DNA from: a virus
IMG/VR virus record: IMGVR_UViG_3300023083_000101
Location: 1-49,800 of that record
DNA: 49,800 bases
Strand: one strand, 5' to 3'
Below the pieces are notes generated by a model. That model ran no database searches and was not told the DNA's origin. It saw only the letters and a list, made by a program, of their open reading frames with translations. Shown here piece by piece: positions 2,240 through 49,800 of this stretch. The first letter of the stretch is position 1. Each line of letters starts with the position of its first letter. A program made the translations under genes and the position numbers.

Positions 2240-4471
2240 ATGAATAGCGCACCTAAAACAGTAGTTATCGAAAACAACCAAGAGGCCCTTGCAACTGCTC
2301 TTGAGCTCAGAGAATACGCAAGCACTACTCGACTCATGTCTATCGACGGAAACGTCCTGAACGCGATTTCAGTCGCTTATAAAACAGCCTCAGGGTTGCA
2401 CAGCGCAAACGACGGGCAAATCACAAAGTCGATCTACAGCATGTCGAAAATCGCTATCGCACTGATGATCGTTAAAGCTGACAGCAGCGATAAAGCTTTC
2501 GACACAGCAGCTTTCGAAATCGCTCGTGATGTTTTCGTCTCCGGCAAAACCCAGGAGAAAGTCCTGGCGCTCGCTGAAGCAACAGGACGCAATCAGGCCG
2601 ATTGCGTCTCAGCTATCAACAGCAAGCTCGAATTCCTGACGGCACGGATGAACTCGAAAACCAACGTCCTGGAAGCCACAGGCATCTCCACCGAGACTCC
2701 AGAAGCCATTCGCGACATCATCCTGGCAGACGGTGGGAAATACCTGATCAGCCTCCCAACCGGTGAAGGCAAGTCGACCATCATCAACGAACCAGTCATG
2801 CAGCACTACCTGGATACTGGCAGGAAGGTACTTGTGATCTCTCACAGGCGCTCAATCAACAAAACCCTTGCGAACCTGCCAGGCATCGTAAGTTACGACG
2901 AGTGCAACGATCCCAGCGACCTACAAAACGCCAAGGGCCTGAAGATCGTCGTCAACTCCCTGACCGCCCTGAAATTCAAGCGCTTCATTCAGGAGGTCGA
3001 CCTGGTCGTGATCGACGAAGCCTCCCAAGTGATCTCGCACGTCCTGGGCGGCGAAGTAAAGAACCGCCAGGCAGTCTGGGAAACCCTGGATTTTGTCGTC
3101 AAACGCACAGCAAACGTGATCATGAGCGATGCTGACATCAATGCCCGGTGCGCTGAGATGGTCGGCTCCGACTACAAGCTCTTCAAGAAGCCTGCAACGC
3201 ACGCTGGCATTACTGTGCGGACTGGTGACATCAATCATGTGCGTGCTCTGGCGATTGAATCGGCGTGCAAGACTAATACGCTGATCGCCTGTGATGCCGT
3301 TAAAGAAGCCCTGGCCCTTGCCAAAGCCATCGAGAAGCAAGGTGGCCCTGCGGTGCTGGTAGTCACCGCTGACAACGCTCAGTGGCCAGAGCAAGCTGCC
3401 TTCATCGCGAACCCAAATGTATCGAGTCACCGGGTCGTCATCTACAGTCCTGTAATCACTTCAGCCCTGTCGATCACTTCCGGCCACTTCAAAGCTCACT
3501 TCGGGGTGTTCCAAGGGCAGGTGGTGCCAAGCGATGCGATCCAGATGCTTCGCCGTGACCGCACTGCCACGTCCTTTGTGGTCGGAATCAAACCACCCCA
3601 GTACAGCAAGTCTGAGGCTGTTGAGGCGTCGTACAAGTGCAAGCCCGTGTGCCTCGACGACCTGCTCGCGACCCTGGGCTTCAAGGACGGCGAACGAGCT
3701 AAAGCCGAAGCTCTCGTGCGATCAGAACTCAGTGCTCTGCAGTTCCAGTTCCTGGAGTACACGCATCGCAAAAACGAAGCCTGGTTGCGCGACAACATTC
3801 AAAGCACGTTGCCTGCAAGCCTCTTGGCGCGTGGATTCGCTGTCGAGGTTCTGGAGCATGACGATGACCTATCTCTGGCCGGATTCAAAGCAGACAGTCA
3901 GTCCCGCAAGGCTGTAAAGCGTGACGTAGCCAAAGGCCTCAACCACGCCGTCAAGGCTGACCCAGTGACTGCTCAGCGTGTTCAAGAGTTCGGCTCGGTA
4001 AATGAACAGGAATACTTGGAGGCGTCTCGTGCAAGGGCAATTGAGGTGATGAAGGTATCGGACTTTGATCTGGATGACGCGATGATCTGGGGACATGGCG
4101 AAGGTGAATCCAAGATCATCAGATTCCGCGAACTGATTAGCACTACCAAAGCCCTTGCCGCAACAGATGAGCGCAGCTCGAAAAAGGTAATGGCCCTGCT
4201 GAATCCAGCACTGACCGCAATGACATCGGGCAACGGATGGACTGGTGATCACAGTGCTGCGCTGTTCGACAGCCTGAACACAATCCGCATTGACGTCCTC
4301 AAAGCCGGAATCAGAATGAGCTCAGCTAAAAGCGATCAAGCTAAGAAAGCCGACATCACTAAGATCTTCAGCCAGTTTGGACTTGTCGTCAAAAAGCATG
4401 AGACAACAGGCAAACAGTTCTTCTACGTGATCACTGCGAAATCCCTGGCTCAAATGAAGCGCTACATCTGA
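2240..4471 (+). CDS. Origin-binding-protein-like SF2 helicase (replication)
   Basis: 743 residues. Walker A is LPTGEGKST (about 172-180), followed by VLVISHRRSI (motif Ia region), Walker B VVIDEAS (DEAS 259-262), SDAD at about 296-299 and motif VI QMLRRDR (about 435-441). This order and the SHRRS signature resemble the herpesvirus UL9/ORBP family and related phage or plasmid replicative helicases. It should unwind phage DNA, perhaps at the adjoining control region, in partnership with the divergently encoded primase. The C-terminal 250 residues are not recognised. The ATG at 2240 follows GAGGAAG. The family is inferred from motifs; direct origin binding is not shown. Confidence 0.7.
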   Translation: MNSAPKTVVIENNQEALATALELREYASTTRLMSIDGNVLNAISVAYKTASGLHSANDGQITKSIYSMSKIAIALMIVKADSSDKAFDTAAFEIARDVFVSGKTQEKVLALAEATGRNQADCVSAINSKLEFLTARMNSKTNVLEATGISTETPEAIRDIILADGGKYLISLPTGEGKSTIINEPVMQHYLDTGRKVLVISHRRSINKTLANLPGIVSYDECNDPSDLQNAKGLKIVVNSLTALKFKRFIQEVDLVVIDEASQVISHVLGGEVKNRQAVWETLDFVVKRTANVIMSDADINARCAEMVGSDYKLFKKPATHAGITVRTGDINHVRALAIESACKTNTLIACDAVKEALALAKAIEKQGGPAVLVVTADNAQWPEQAAFIANPNVSSHRVVIYSPVITSALSITSGHFKAHFGVFQGQVVPSDAIQMLRRDRTATSFVVGIKPPQYSKSEAVEASYKCKPVCLDDLLATLGFKDGERAKAEALVRSELSALQFQFLEYTHRKNEAWLRDNIQSTLPASLLARGFAVEVLEHDDDLSLAGFKADSQSRKAVKRDVAKGLNHAVKADPVTAQRVQEFGSVNEQEYLEASRARAIEVMKVSDFDLDDAMIWGHGEGESKIIRFRELISTTKALAATDERSSKKVMALLNPALTAMTSGNGWTGDHSAALFDSLNTIRIDVLKAGIRMSSAKSDQAKKADITKIFSQFGLVVKKHETTGKQFFYVITAKSLAQMKRYI

Positions 4472-11186: not shown

Positions 11187-11555
11187 ATGTCTCGTCTCGC
11201 AGAATTCCGTCAGCTGGAAAAACACCTGGCTGAGCAACTGGCAGCCCTCGAAGCAATGAAAGGCGACGAAGGCCTGAAGAAAGAGGTCGAGTTCGAAACC
11301 AAGCTTCGCGCTCTGCTCGGCGAGTATGGCTACAGCCTGCGCAATGTTATCGCCATTCTTGACCCACAAGCCACGCGTCGCGCTCCTACAGCCACCGAAT
11401 CCAAGGCGGGCACACGCAAGCCACGTCAGGTGAAAATCTACAAGAACCCACATTCGGGCGAAGTTGTTGAGACTAAAGGCGGCAATCACAAAATTCTGAA
11501 AGACTGGAAATCGGAATACGGCTCCGACACTGTGGAATCCTGGTTGGCTAAGTAA
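11187..11555 (+). CDS. mvaT-like: MvaT/MvaU-family xenogeneic silencer
   Basis: 122 residues. The N-terminal coiled coil (FRQLEKHLAEQLAALEAMKG ... KKEVEFETKLRALLGEYG) is the oligomerisation domain. After a flexible linker, RKPRQVKIYKNPHSGEV and ETKGGNHKILKDWKSEYG form the AT-hook-like DNA-binding domain of Pseudomonas MvaT. Full family length. Such proteins coat A+T-rich DNA and silence it; carried by a phage, it may silence cargo, quiet the prophage, or interfere with host MvaT. ATG follows AGGAG. A terminator follows at 11579, so it is monocistronic. The family is limited largely to Pseudomonas, which points to the host. Confidence 0.92.
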   Translation: MSRLAEFRQLEKHLAEQLAALEAMKGDEGLKKEVEFETKLRALLGEYGYSLRNVIAILDPQATRRAPTATESKAGTRKPRQVKIYKNPHSGEVVETKGGNHKILKDWKSEYGSDTVESWLAK

Positions 11556-42850: not shown

Positions 42851-43831
42851 CTAAGTAGATACATAGCCAATTGTCGTTTTTCTAATAACGCCCAAAGTCT
42901 CTGCGCTCCTGAAAATCTCTCCAGCCCGCAGGTTCCCGATCCTGGAGTTTTTCGCGAATTCCTTGAGTCTTACCGGCGTGCCGGGTGCCAAGGTTTTTGC
43001 GTGAACAACCAGGGTTTTCAGGATTTCTGCGTTCGAGTCGAGCAGCGTTTCTGGGTTTTTCACAGTTTCTGGCGTTTCTGTCTCTCCCGCTGGCATGCCA
43101 GTCACCTCGGTTTCTGGTGGTGGCGTTTCGATAGCGCACGAGGCTACAACATGCACGCTAGAGCGTCTAGCGCCACGGACGCCAGTCAGAATCAGAGCTG
43201 GAACGATCTCTAGGGACAACGCAAAACCGAGGCATAGAAACTGAGCCAGCAACGGCGGCAGGCTCGACGCTTTAGCAACACCGGATTTGATGTGAGCGAT
43301 CTCAAGAGACCCAGCGTTGATACGTGCAATGGCTTGAGCGCGCTGAGCTGCTGCACGAGAGCCGACCGACTCTTCTAACTCCAGGGCTTTTGAAACCATG
43401 CCGCGAGCTCGTAAGTCGTTAGCCTGAGCCCCTGCATCGGAGATCTCTTTATCCAGCTGGGAGATCAATGCTGAGTCTTTCTGAGCCATTGTTGTAAGTG
43501 CCGACACCCGCTCGGTAGTCATCACCTCGTGAGTAGCCTTGCTAACGCTAATCGAAGTCATGAGCCGGTCATAAGTAGCCCAACCGCTCACACCAGAAAG
43601 CAACAAGGCGCAGGAGATAGTAAGTGCAGCGCTAACACCTCGCAAAACCCGGATAGCAACAGGCCATGCTAGATACTTAAAAATATCCAGAAGCACGGCT
43701 GCCGACGCAAACAAAAGCGCCAGGTTCTTGTCTTCAATCAATGCGTACATTGCAAGCGCAACCGAAATTGCAGTTACGCTAGACAATAGAAATGCGATTG
43801 CGACAAGTAATGCCGACAACTTTTTGCTCAT
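42851..43831 (-). CDS. Multi-span membrane protein with coiled coil and C-terminal wHTH-like domain
   Basis: 326 residues. Three N-terminal hydrophobic spans (LLVAIAFLLSSVTAISVALAM, LALLFASAAVLLDIFKYLAW, SAALTISCALLLSGVSGW), a charged coiled coil (about 98-185) and a fourth span (LLAQFLCLGFALSLEIVPALIL). A Pro/Thr/Glu-rich linker (about 232-262) leads to a compact C-terminal domain (TPVRLKEFAKNSRIGNLRAGEIFRSAETLGVIRK) that reads as a winged helix. A membrane protein with a cytoplasmic DNA-binding-like tail is unusual for a phage. GAGG precedes the ATG. First gene of a leftward trio. Confidence 0.6.
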   Translation of the reverse strand: MSKKLSALLVAIAFLLSSVTAISVALAMYALIEDKNLALLFASAAVLLDIFKYLAWPVAIRVLRGVSAALTISCALLLSGVSGWATYDRLMTSISVSKATHEVMTTERVSALTTMAQKDSALISQLDKEISDAGAQANDLRARGMVSKALELEESVGSRAAAQRAQAIARINAGSLEIAHIKSGVAKASSLPPLLAQFLCLGFALSLEIVPALILTGVRGARRSSVHVVASCAIETPPPETEVTGMPAGETETPETVKNPETLLDSNAEILKTLVVHAKTLAPGTPVRLKEFAKNSRIGNLRAGEIFRSAETLGVIRKTTIGYVST

Positions 43832-46155: not shown

Positions 46156-46619
46156 AGATTGTGGTTGATTGCGAGTTTACTCAGCTCAATGCAACTTCAA
46201 AGCTGATAAGTATGGCGCTGGTTGCAGAAGATGCTCAGGAGCTGTATTTCGAGCTAACAGATAATTATGAGCTTTCGGATTGCAGTGACTTCGTATTAGA
46301 GCACGTTGTTCCGCAACTTGGTGGCGTTCAGGTAGCATGCACCATTCATGAGGCGCAAGAGAAGTTACAGGCTTTTCTGAAAGGGTTTGAGTACGTGCAA
46401 ATCATGACTGATGCTCCGCTGTGGGACTGGGAGTTCTTCTGCGAAATCGCCTATTACAAGAATAAGTGGCCTGGCAATGTATCTAATAGGCCGATCAACC
46501 TGATCGACTTATATAACGAAACAAGTGTTCAGGTAGAAGGTGCACCTGAGCTTCCGCATCATGCGTTGCTCGACGCTCGAATGTTAATGAGTCACTACAA
46601 GCGCTGCATCAAATTGTAA
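46152..46619 (+). CDS. DEDDh 3'-5' exoribonuclease-like protein
   Basis: 155 residues. VVDCEFT (D6, E8), LWDWEFF (D92) and PHHALLDARMLM (H136, D141) match the DEDDh pattern of Rv2179c-type exoribonucleases. It starts within the stop of the preceding gene and ends with an 11-base tail-to-tail overlap with mobA. The second DEDDh exonuclease of the window; the first (15731-16210) pairs with DUF4238. Confidence 0.8.
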   Translation: MKIVVDCEFTQLNATSKLISMALVAEDAQELYFELTDNYELSDCSDFVLEHVVPQLGGVQVACTIHEAQEKLQAFLKGFEYVQIMTDAPLWDWEFFCEIAYYKNKWPGNVSNRPINLIDLYNETSVQVEGAPELPHHALLDARMLMSHYKRCIKL

Positions 46620-47763
46620 GCTCATCTTCTTCTGGGATGCTAAATGGCGTTCCTGAAGTAAACTCAATGTAGTTGCGCTTGAGTCTGCATTCTTTCGGCT
46701 TGAACAAAGCATCAAATATCGCATCAAGCAACTCAAGAATTTCCTGAATCAGTTTTTGAACTTCATAGTCTTTTGCCGTGAATCTGACGTATACAGGCTT
46801 CCTTCTGCGCCCGCTGACTGCGATGAACTCATAGAAATAGATTCGAGCTCTTTCTTGTTCTTCGCTATCTCGGCGAGTAATCTCTCTCTGAAGTTCATAA
46901 ATGGTTTCGGGGTCATAATGTATTCCTTCTTGAGTTGTTAGTTTTTGCCAAGTAAGCCTTGAGCGTTTGAGCTGCCTGCCGCTGATGTGTTTGCCGTCAA
47001 ACTCAAACGAAATACCCTTTGGCTGGCCTTGATCGTTGAGCGTCAGGTTGATGTAGACCTTTTGCTTTCTCAGTGCGCGGACGAAGTCGAACATGTCGCC
47101 GTCCTGGGCGTTGGTGGCTTCGATGGCGCCTGCGATCTTGGCGATCATTTTGTGCTTGAGCGGGAGGTCGTTATCGCGGATTGATGCATGGAGCTCTGCG
47201 TGAGTGATCGAGACGCCCCAGGTGTCTTTGGGCTTCGGAGCTTTGCTCAGGTTGAAGCGGTCTTCAATTCCCGACACTGACTCTAGGCTGACGCTTCGCT
47301 CGTTGCTGTCTTTGACCATTCCGAAGTCGTCGTTGAGGCGGATACGGTTTGCAACGATGTGTACGTGCTGATGATCTTTGTCTTGGTGCATCACCGCTAC
47401 GAACTGGTTCGTCTCGTCGAAGCCGAGGTCATTTAGGTATGTTTGGACGGCTGTGCGCCACTGAGGGGTAGTCAGGGACTCTCCAGGCCTCAGGGATAGC
47501 ATGGCGTGAAAGACCGGCTTGATGGGCTTGTCAGAGTCGATTGAAAAGCGTCTGAGCGTCTCCACTTGGTCGAACTCTTTGATCATCTCAGTGAGGTCTG
47601 CTTCGTTGCCCTGGAGGACAGCCGGTAGGGGATCACAGCTCATTGTGTTGTGGCTGATCGTCCGGATGCCTGAGATCTCGTGATCGTGTTTTGTGCAGCC
47701 GAAGATGTATCGGATTCGATTTTTAAAAGACCCAGCAGACTTCGGGAAGATTTTGCCGATCAT
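46609..47763 (-). CDS. mobA: MobA/VirD2-type relaxase
   Basis: 384 residues. Relaxase domain (about 1-200): candidate catalytic tyrosine in KNRIRYIFG (Y19), the conserved-looking segment VFHAMLSLRPGE, and the metal-binding three-histidine motif MHQDKDHQHVHIVANRI (H126, H133, H135, with D128 and N139), matching PF03432-type MOB_P relaxases. It should nick one strand at an oriT and pilot it to a recipient through another element's type IV secretion system; no mating-pair-formation genes are present. A second domain (SFEFDGKHISGRQLKRSRLTW) is usual in mobilization proteins. The start overlaps mobC by four bases. A relaxase within a full phage genome is highly unusual. Confidence 0.9.
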   Translation of the reverse strand: MIGKIFPKSAGSFKNRIRYIFGCTKHDHEISGIRTISHNTMSCDPLPAVLQGNEADLTEMIKEFDQVETLRRFSIDSDKPIKPVFHAMLSLRPGESLTTPQWRTAVQTYLNDLGFDETNQFVAVMHQDKDHQHVHIVANRIRLNDDFGMVKDSNERSVSLESVSGIEDRFNLSKAPKPKDTWGVSITHAELHASIRDNDLPLKHKMIAKIAGAIEATNAQDGDMFDFVRALRKQKVYINLTLNDQGQPKGISFEFDGKHISGRQLKRSRLTWQKLTTQEGIHYDPETIYELQREITRRDSEEQERARIYFYEFIAVSGRRRKPVYVRFTAKDYEVQKLIQEILELLDAIFDALFKPKECRLKRNYIEFTSGTPFSIPEEDELTI

Positions 47764-48053
47764 GCAACACCTCCAAGGTTTACCTGGGCGATGTACTTCA
47801 CCTTTTCCAAGAGTTCGGAGCCTGGGCGGTCGGCGTTAATCATTGATGCTAAGTTCATCAACTCACGGGCTATCTGTACGACGTCCTGGGTGACTTTGGG
47901 CTTAACCTGGCCGTTGGCAACGTAGTCACGGATAAAAGCTCCAACGGACTTGTAGCCTGCTTCAGCCATCTTTGCATTCAGGGTGTCGAGCTCAGTTTTA
48001 TTCAGGCGCAGAGTAATGCGGGATTCTTTGTTTTGCCTCTCAATAGTTTTCAT
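47760..48053 (-). CDS. mobC: MobC-like relaxosome accessory protein
   Basis: 97 residues. ESRITLRLNKTELDTLNAKMAEAGYKSVGAFIRD is a ribbon-helix-helix of the MobC type; the C-terminal helices (IARELMNLASMINA) match the family. It should bind near oriT and help the relaxase open the strands. Directly upstream of, and translationally coupled to, mobA. Upstream lie 370 bases without a gene that include the iteron array, the likely target. Confidence 0.85.
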   Translation of the reverse strand: MKTIERQNKESRITLRLNKTELDTLNAKMAEAGYKSVGAFIRDYVANGQVKPKVTQDVVQIARELMNLASMINADRPGSELLEKVKYIAQVNLGGVA

Positions 48054-48423
48054 CTTGACCCACCTTTATTATTCTAGTTATTGAGCCTCTTAACGCAACA
48101 CCCGAAGGGATGTGAGTATCTAACCTTACTTGTCTGACATAGACACAACTGGCTAAAAAGAAGCTCTAAGGCTATTGTGCAATTGGAGCTTTGGGTGGTT
48201 CTAGTGTTTTTGCTATTTATTTTGATTTATTTAGTTGTATACCGAAACCTTCGCAAGGTGTGAATGCGAAATCGCAGTAAGGGAGTGCGAAATCGCAGTG
48301 GGTGAGTGCGAAATCACAAACACGGAAAGCGAATTCGCACTAATGTACTGCGACAATCACAAAGCGTGACTGTGATTCTGCAATAACATAGTGCGAATTC
48401 GCTAAAGGGCGTTGCGGATTAGA
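48054..48423. other. Intergenic region: candidate oriT and repeat array
   Basis: No gene is seen. The first 200 bases are A+T-rich with short dyads such as ACCTT-cgc-AAGGT (48247-48259) and probably hold the mobC promoter and nic site. The remainder is an array of eight related 14-bp units with 21-bp periodicity (48265-48426). Confidence 0.6.
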
Positions 48424-48426
48424 TTA
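48265..48426. repeat. Array of eight iteron-like repeats, 21-bp period
   Basis: Units start at 48265, 48286, 48307, 48328, 48349, 48371, 48392 and 48413. The consensus is TGCGAAATCGCAGT, with a palindromic core TGCGAwwTCGCA. Units 1 and 2 are identical; units 4 and 7 have the GCGAATTCGC core; units 3, 5, 6 and 8 are more diverged. Spacing is 21 bp except for one 22. All units face the same side of the helix, as in plasmid iterons, MobC or ParB sites, or integrase arm sites. Confidence 0.85.
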
Positions 48427-49800
48427 CAGATGAACGGACTTCGATTTAAGTGCGCGGTCGTCAAGCGGAGGAAGATTTGAGAGAAGGCCCCGACAAACGA
48501 GATCTTTATCAAGCTCAGCGTTCTTGAAGATCTCCGCCTCAACCTTGGAGGTTGCATCCCTGATTTCAGAAAGATATGCAGTCTTGTAGCCATCAGTGAC
48601 ATCAACAGATTGCCCGCCGCCGTCATGGTTGCAGAGAACTTTGATGTAAAAAGCACCGACCCCAGCACGCTCAGCAATAGAGATGAAGCTTGCGCGCAGG
48701 ATTTTCCGGGGCAAGTGCTTATTGATGATCAGAGAAAGGCGAGTGAGGAAGTCACGGACATTGGACTCACTGACTTTGTCTTGTTGAACACCTGAGAACA
48801 CATAGTCGCCAGTCGAGTGTTTCATCGCGTAAATGAGCTGGCAATATGCAGAGTCATTCAGAACCAGATGGAACTCATGCCCGTTCTTGAGAGTGTCTTC
48901 TTCGTTCGACTTGTTGCGCTTGGGAAAAATGATAGAGCGCGTTTTGTGACAGACATAGCTGCGACGAATCTTCACAATTTCACCAGGGCGAACTCCCGAG
49001 AAAAGCATAAACAGGATCGCGGCAGATACGCTCTTAAATGATGTTGGCACATCACGCAGCGGGGGTGTGTCAGCGATATCGATGCAACCGTCAATGAAGG
49101 CTTTGAGTTCATTAGGGTTGATTCGGATTTTATCTCGCTTATTTTCGTGCCAAGTCTTGATGGTTGTCATGATGTCGACAGGATTGTACGTATAAATACG
49201 ATGCCCAATATCGTCCGCGTAAAAAGCGATAGAGAACGAGAAGATACTCCCCAGCAACGACACCGCTTTGTTTGCCGAACGCTCCCTGGGGGCTGTAACA
49301 CGACCGTTAGGTCTTACTGCAGGCTTGGTAGTCTCGGCGTGCAGGTTGAGAACATCATCTTTTGTAATGCTGGAGAGGGGGCGATCACCATAAAGCGGCT
49401 GGATATAGTTTTTGAACGTTCTGTTGTAGTCGGCCACTGTCGTCTGAGTGAGCTTCACTTTACGAGAGAGCATGCACTCAAATGCCATGCCCACTGTCAC
49501 GCTTTCTCGCAGTGTCTTTGCTTCCTTCGCATCAATGATGACGTCGAAGTTGGCGTATGTCTTGAGTGCCTTCTCGCGTACAAGGGGAAGTTTGGTGTTT
49601 TTGGGGCAGAAGGCCTCCAGCTTTTCCCGTCGATCTTTGCCGCGAACTTTTCGGTATACAAAGAAGGTCTTTCCGCCAGCCTTTGTAACCCTGATTACAA
49701 GTCCCTTAGTTTCGGTGTCATAAACCACGATCTCGGCTTTACCTGGAGGGCACACGAGCTCTGTCAGTGCTGCCTTATTGAAATTGATTTTGAGGGCCAC
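48424..49800 (-). CDS. int: P4-type tyrosine integrase (5' end at or beyond window edge)
   Basis: 458 residues from a GTG that is the last triplet of the window; the true start could lie outside. The N-terminal arm-binding domain (MALKINFNKAALTE...VVYDTETKGLVIRVTKAGGKTFFVYRKV) is the DUF4102-like pattern of P4-type integrases. The core-binding domain is about 105-215. Catalytic domain: FSGVRPGEI (R271), SIIFPKRNKSN (K), KILRASFIS (R369), CNHDGGG (H392) and nucleophile YKTAY (Y405). The first His of the usual HxxR box is Lys (K366), a tolerated variation. It should integrate the phage into the chromosome. No att site is visible inside the window. Confidence 0.85.
   Translation of the reverse strand: MALKINFNKAALTELVCPPGKAEIVVYDTETKGLVIRVTKAGGKTFFVYRKVRGKDRREKLEAFCPKNTKLPLVREKALKTYANFDVIIDAKEAKTLRESVTVGMAFECMLSRKVKLTQTTVADYNRTFKNYIQPLYGDRPLSSITKDDVLNLHAETTKPAVRPNGRVTAPRERSANKAVSLLGSIFSFSIAFYADDIGHRIYTYNPVDIMTTIKTWHENKRDKIRINPNELKAFIDGCIDIADTPPLRDVPTSFKSVSAAILFMLFSGVRPGEIVKIRRSYVCHKTRSIIFPKRNKSNEEDTLKNGHEFHLVLNDSAYCQLIYAMKHSTGDYVFSGVQQDKVSESNVRDFLTRLSLIINKHLPRKILRASFISIAERAGVGAFYIKVLCNHDGGGQSVDVTDGYKTAYLSEIRDATSKVEAEIFKNAELDKDLVCRGLLSNLPPLDDRALKSKSVHL

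Follow-up and report, generated by a model that had tools for sequence, protein, structure and literature searches.

A helix-phased dyad array beside the oriT-like core of a phage-borne MOBP mobilization module

We examined a virus record of 49.8 kb, referred to in its entirety as the window, that encodes phage proteins, terminase and portal among them. Because the named relatives of its relaxase sit in Pseudomonas and Halopseudomonas genomes, we infer that the host of the phage is Pseudomonas. The relaxase gene, mobA (46609..47763, minus strand), encodes a 384-aa protein of the MOBP type (PF03432, E 1.5e-20; also NF041893, TraI/MobA(P), E 8e-17, which is under that model's cut-off). It adjoins mobC (47760..48053, minus strand), whose 97-aa product matches the NikA-like ribbon-helix-helix (RHH) relaxosome accessory proteins above cut-off (PF21983, E 1e-9). 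Other profile matches of MobC were weak (NikA 2ba3, E 0.017; PcfF 6qeq, E 0.025). Its AlphaFold2 model (pLDDT 83) has the helices typical of RHH proteins and a helical C-terminal hairpin, and a fold search with MobC gave no significant match, the best being PcfF (E 0.83). A tyrosine recombinase (integrase) gene lies at 48424..49800 on the minus strand (PHROG 1, E 3e-31).

Between mobC and the integrase gene are several conserved features. An oriT-like core, GCCAGTTGTGTCTATGTCAGACA, occupies 48131..48153 on the minus strand (the plus strand of the window reads AGACACAACTGGCTA); it contains the inverted repeat TGTCT/AGACA and is invariant in relatives. Next to it, alignment revealed a conserved hairpin, CTCAC-CCC-TTC-GGG-TTGCG (48094..48118, minus strand). 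On the other side, a promoter-like sequence, TAGAAC-N18-CACAAT (48174..48203, minus strand), was recognized by its conservation and is probably the promoter of mobC-mobA; its CACAAT reads CATAAT in most relatives. A scan for consensus promoters and terminators reported neither, and an Rfam search returned no RNA family. An AT-rich stretch (48204..48250, no strand assigned), evident in both sequence and alignment, leads from the promoter-like sequence to the array that is the subject of this analysis.

The array consists of eight TCGCA-N9-TGCGA dyads at 48251..48417 (no strand assigned), defined by sequence and by conservation in relatives. The units are at 48251-48269, 48272-48290, 48293-48311, 48314-48332, 48335-48353, 48357-48375, 48378-48396 and 48399-48417. 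An earlier note on this DNA had described eight units with an exact 21-bp period between mobC and the integrase gene. Its placement holds, as the array sits past the integrase stop codon and before mobC, and the array is real, with TGCGAAWTCGCA-type dyads beginning where it put them, at 48265, 48286, 48307, 48328, 48349, 48371, 48392 and 48413 (the one at 48349 reads TGCGACAATCACA). However, the steps are 21, 21, 21, 21, 22, 21 and 21 bp, so that six of the seven have the claimed period and one does not, and the unit had been drawn one half out of register, with an extra half-site, TCGCA at 48251, lying ahead of the start it gave. We rejected the TGCGAAWTCGCA palindrome as the unit in favor of CGCA-N9-TGCG because the former has an inner spacing of either 8 or 18-19 bp, a difference of one helical turn, whereas the latter is fixed.

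An array of this kind is far beyond chance. The best sum over eight units was 79 in the array region, compared to 54 at best elsewhere in the window and no more than 56 in 1000 dinucleotide-preserving shuffles. Tandem Repeats Finder independently reported a period of 21 at 48251-48319, and a repeat search of the window found copies at 48251, 48272, 48293, 48314 and 48357. The best conserved unit is the one closest to the transfer core (48251..48269, minus strand), which in the mob sense reads TTCGCATTCACACCTTGCGAA and in the window copy is followed by G; units become degenerate toward the integrase end.

Relatives were gathered from viral contigs and genome loci by their relaxase, by relaxase alignment and by searches with the oriT-like core; searching viral contigs with the integrase alone yielded no relatives. 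Matches to the core were present in 21 viral contigs and, of 399 sampled Pseudomonas genomes, in 11, each of which carries this relaxase; the segment GCCAG-TGTGTCT was invariant in all 25 aligned loci. A relaxase-linked core with an inverted repeat is thus present in the nic region, the cleavage site itself being putative. At a threshold of E<=1e-60 the relaxase profile matched 13 of the 399 genomes, namely the 11 with the core and two (G325 and G377) that belong to a more distant relaxase clade. That clade, which includes L058-L060, lacks both the core and an array of this TGCG/CGCA type. One further core match, in contig L126, fell in GC-rich sequence with neither relaxase nor array and was dismissed as chance.

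The search for array conservation proposed in the earlier note gave a uniform answer, as every relative with the core and enough upstream DNA to examine has a TGCG/CGCA half-site array upstream of it, beside the core and the genes for MobC and a MOBP relaxase. Among viral records akin to the phage, the array was found in 12 of 12 with a PF03432 relaxase and in 0 of 7 without. The exact probability of this split is 1/50388 (~2e-5), a figure to be read with the relatedness of the 19 records, the possible incompleteness of some contigs and the choice of five positives (L006, L010, L028, L036 and L040) for carrying the module. In the complete relaxase-positive loci that were read, the array accompanied its cognate Mob genes, and it was absent where these were absent. 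Across the 24 loci compared, some with short flanks, MobC and MobA were the only proteins common to all.

This distribution bears on the other functions that the earlier note had offered. The window, L003, L005, L006 and L020-L022 have an integrase gene adjacent to the array, as they would if the dyads were arm or excision sites of an attP. However, L007 and L010 keep the array unchanged with an integrase of another family, separated from it by ~1.6-2.4 kb and an unrelated gene, and no integrase was found near the array in L004, G312 or G371. Since the array stays with mobC, and not with any one integrase gene or type, the integrase is outside the conserved module and we find an arm-site function hardly credible.

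Nor does the array follow phage genes. In G190 synteny covers the entire phage, whereas in G059, G212, G312 and G371 the array, core, mobC and mobA occur with no phage structural genes within 60 kb. The G059 copy lies in a small island with the order AlpA, integrase, ABC-3C-type genes (CTD7, DUF3732), array, mobC and mobA, after which ordinary chromosomal genes resume; this island is a putative small integrative mobilizable element. Direct repeats of the attL/attR kind were sought around the chromosomal copies and none were found, which leaves the ends of the elements undefined. The island has no recognized Rep, Par or Stb gene. A partition site is disfavored because the array is present there without a recognized Par gene, and neither ParA/ParB nor StbA is among the genes that the compared loci share, which are only mobC and mobA.

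The suggestion of a replication origin deserves more attention, as ~21-bp direct repeats beside an AT-rich stretch resemble iterons. The earlier note was also not quite right in seeing no Rep, since the window encodes a CyRepA1-family replication protein at 2240-4471 (NF042913, E 9.5e-54, just under the curated cut-off) that, like some other initiator, might bind an iteron oriV. SGI1 is likewise integrated, carries an oriT and Mob genes of its own and depends on a helper for the mating pore (PMC7826253, PMC6414798); it also has RepA, of the Rep_3 type, with an oriV of four iterons (PMC7826253). In contrast, the array described here does not travel with a Rep. G412, G413, G414 and G418 have the CyRepA1 gene but neither relaxase nor array, whereas G059, G212, G312 and G371 have the array but no CyRepA1; no other Rep was recognized in the G059 island. 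Because the two dissociate in both directions, an iteron oriV is very improbable. The CyRepA1 family is otherwise known from cyanobacterial plasmids; here it is a Pseudomonas phage gene, and relatives without the mob module retain it.

In eight whole Pseudomonas genomes (~50 Mb), TTCGCA-N9-TGCGAA occurred only at the arrays, apart from one stray match in G312, and matches to the CACTC form outside arrays did not exceed a reversed control. Sites of a host transcription-factor regulon are therefore not scattered elsewhere in these genomes. The array is part of the mobilization module and is independent of the integrase, Rep, phage genes and a host regulon. In genome G003, CACTC-form matches outside arrays lay near two contig ends, which we assume to be repeated sequence.

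The near absence of the motif from host genomes would also suit an operator array, in which a regulator other than MobC, encoded by the element or by a helper, binds the dyads and turns on mobCA only when a conjugative helper is present. The dyads do lie directly upstream of the conserved promoter-like sequence, and the mobilization genes of SGI1 respond to the helper-encoded AcaCD (PMC7826253). However, no regulator gene is common to all of the elements, which share MobC and MobA only; AlpA was recognized in just two; and ~8 phased dyads over ~170 bp exceed what a promoter usually needs. We therefore regard a dedicated operator array as unlikely, although not far-fetched.

The spacing of the half-sites was compared by pooling 25 loci. 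The CGCA-to-TGCG offset of 13 bp was observed 49 times against an expectation of ~0.2, while TGCG-to-CGCA distances were 8, 18-19 or 29 bp and TGCG-to-TGCG distances were 21, 31, 42 or 63 bp. As only the 13-bp offset is constant, the fixed element is TCGCA-N9-TGCGA; in relatives CTC often adjoins one of its arms, and the distance from one element to the next is an integral number of helical turns. When the distances between half-sites of the same orientation were scanned for periodicity, the peak fell at 10.4-10.6 bp in both closer and more distant loci, with a mean cosine at the peak of 0.79 for the 14 closer loci and 0.50 for the 11 distant ones, values that none of 500 randomizations reached in either set. 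In L010 the entire array is 10 bp, or one turn, nearer the core than in its relatives. Because the spacings of 21, 31 and 42 bp in relatives fit a 10.5-bp repeat so sharply, the constraint is helical phase rather than a fixed 21-bp period. The earlier note had proposed that loss of conserved spacing in related genomes would count against it: the exact 21-bp step is indeed not kept, but multiples of ~10.5 bp are. Its broader proposal of cooperative, phased protein binding gains support from the same pattern in near and distant relatives.

Some relatives have a further array, built in the same way from TGCC/GGCA half-sites and with a period of 21 bp (distances of 21, 42 and 63 bp occurred 21, 14 and 7 times); like the first, it often contains CACTC-like spacers. 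It lies at -440 to -346 from the core in L035 and at about -589 to -526 in L026, L053 and L054, and between the array and the promoter in L036, L040, L057, L129, L130, L132, L135 and L136. A protein of the same family as the ligand of the first array, but with a different specificity, may bind it.

Duplex binding, to which the 10.5-bp phasing points, is not what would be expected of a single-stranded signal, whose hairpins on the transferred strand would, as it enters, provide an ssDNA promoter or a site for priming. The window array does fold strongly as single-stranded DNA (z -6.3), and it would be the first DNA to enter if the nic position proposed below is right. However, folding is near background (z about -1) in L036, L037, L055 and L056, which retain the half-sites, and a role as single-stranded DNA is accordingly quite improbable.

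By its likeness to the ColE1 nic, CTGG|CTTA, we take the cleavage site to be CTGG|C on the plus strand, which would place the nic between 48152 and 48153. If so, the array is in the leading region and is transferred first. The nearest precedents for an array on the leading side are the stbDRs of R388, bound by StbA, and the TraK site of RP4, repeat arrays by oriT that are bound by a plasmid protein and affect transfer (PMC3098194). A stability or anchoring site of this kind, at which wrapping balances maintenance against transfer, would agree with the present array in size and in position beside oriT. However, the R388 stbDRs are 9-bp direct repeats with 2-bp gaps (an 11-bp step), and no StbA- or TraK-like gene is among the shared genes; moreover, these elements are chromosomally integrated, G059 with no recognized Par or Stb gene. 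An anchoring function of the R388 or RP4 type thus seems improbable.

The oriT/MobC option is the one among the four in the earlier note that survives, and the array may well be a relaxosome, or oriT, accessory nucleoprotein array, most likely bound by MobC, a reading that we hold with middling confidence. MobC is the favored and natural candidate ligand because it is an RHH protein encoded next door. The sixth base of the half-site also tracks the predicted contact strand of MobC: the base after TGCGA is A or T where the MobC strand is R-x-T-x-R (17 loci), C where it is S-x-T-x-R (three loci) and mixed in five loci with other strands. The covariation is imperfect, as L037 and L055 have the contact residues T/P-x-I-x-R and yet keep TGCGAA-type sites. 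Because few independent changes are involved, we consider it suggestive and not conclusive. The half-sites of RHH operators are generally 8-11 bp apart, narrower than the 13 bp in the array. The inferred nic, moreover, would put the array 3' of nic, which counts against MobC, since the usual binding sites of RHH accessory factors lie 5' of nic or within it (PMC8136818). The ligand might instead be MobA, an AlpA-like factor or a protein supplied by a helper.

If the array does act as a relaxosome accessory site, the module of array, promoter, oriT core, mobC and mobA found in a temperate Pseudomonas phage and in unrelated islands might work as follows. A dimeric DNA-binding protein, most likely MobC, would occupy neighboring TCGCA-N9-TGCGA dyads, all on the same side of the helix, and would curve or wrap the DNA into a nucleoprotein complex of ~170 bp beside the nic region. 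This complex could load or activate MobA at nic and help to melt it, and from its position upstream of the mob promoter it could also tune expression of mobC-mobA. The ligand, the wrapping, the nic position and the effects on transfer and regulation are all predictions from sequence.

Several characterized systems resemble parts of this module. In the IncU plasmid RA3, a bicistronic mobC-relaxase operon lies by oriT, and its RHH MobC binds an imperfect palindrome, a dyad at the mobC promoter, with autoregulation and a 2-3 fold effect on mobilization (PMC4175270). RA3 differs in having one operator (OM) inside the promoter, whereas here eight phased units lie upstream, in integrated elements and a phage. 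In the pWBG749-family oriTs, specificity is set by the RHH factor SmpO acting at ossA/ossB, sites that accompany the relaxase gene; its N-terminal 17 residues are responsible and one substitution is enough to switch it (PMC8136818). However, those are two sites on Gram-positive plasmids and form no helical array. A prophage of ~50 kb, phi1207.3 of Streptococcus pyogenes, has been tied to conjugal transfer, but the paper describing it names no relaxase or oriT (PMC4260502), unlike the Pseudomonas elements with their complete MobC-MobA-oriT module.

So read, the array is as a kind a relaxosome accessory site, and such sites are usually described as one to few inverted repeats. In the open-access literature searched, we found neither a conserved array of ~8 helix-phased dyads with free step and sequence nor a lineage of phages carrying a MOBP module in full, an absence that is no proof of novelty. 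It is possible, though on balance doubtful, that these are temperate Pseudomonas phages that spread both as virions and by conjugation, and that the relaxosome assembles in their oriT at a site of a new class, where the 10.5-bp phase is kept while the sequence, number and step (21, 31 or 42 bp) of the units are free, some members having a second TGCC/GGCA sub-array. A conserved, phase-constrained array of ~8 dyads would offer a natural series for the study of accessory-protein wrapping of oriT DNA and of specificity drift. Its carriage by a temperate phage raises the question of whether prophages are also mobilizable by conjugation, and the array marks this mobilization module across Pseudomonas phages and defense-carrying islands.

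Finally, we noted several features of the surrounding DNA. In the G059 island (L070, ~11.4-18 kb, reverse strand) the ABC-3C-type system lies between integrase and oriT array. A 398-aa protein with no Pfam match is encoded directly upstream of the array in L007 (3160-4356) and G312 (L076, 8481-9677); it occurs in several elements, and in L010 an unrelated 626-aa protein takes its place, so that the outer edge of the array itself seems to be a point of cargo exchange. G207 (C1:1743349 and 1781202) is island-like, with the mob module and the CyRepA1 and phrog_34715 genes ~40 kb apart and no phage structural genes. A conserved 326-aa membrane protein of no known family is encoded at 42851-43831 of the window, ~3 kb from the relaxase gene, and has homologs in nine of the loci compared. 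The window also encodes an H-NS-like silencer of the MvaT/MvaU type at 11187-11555 (NF041859, E 2e-55), with homologs near the mob module in G212, G371, G190 and G207.
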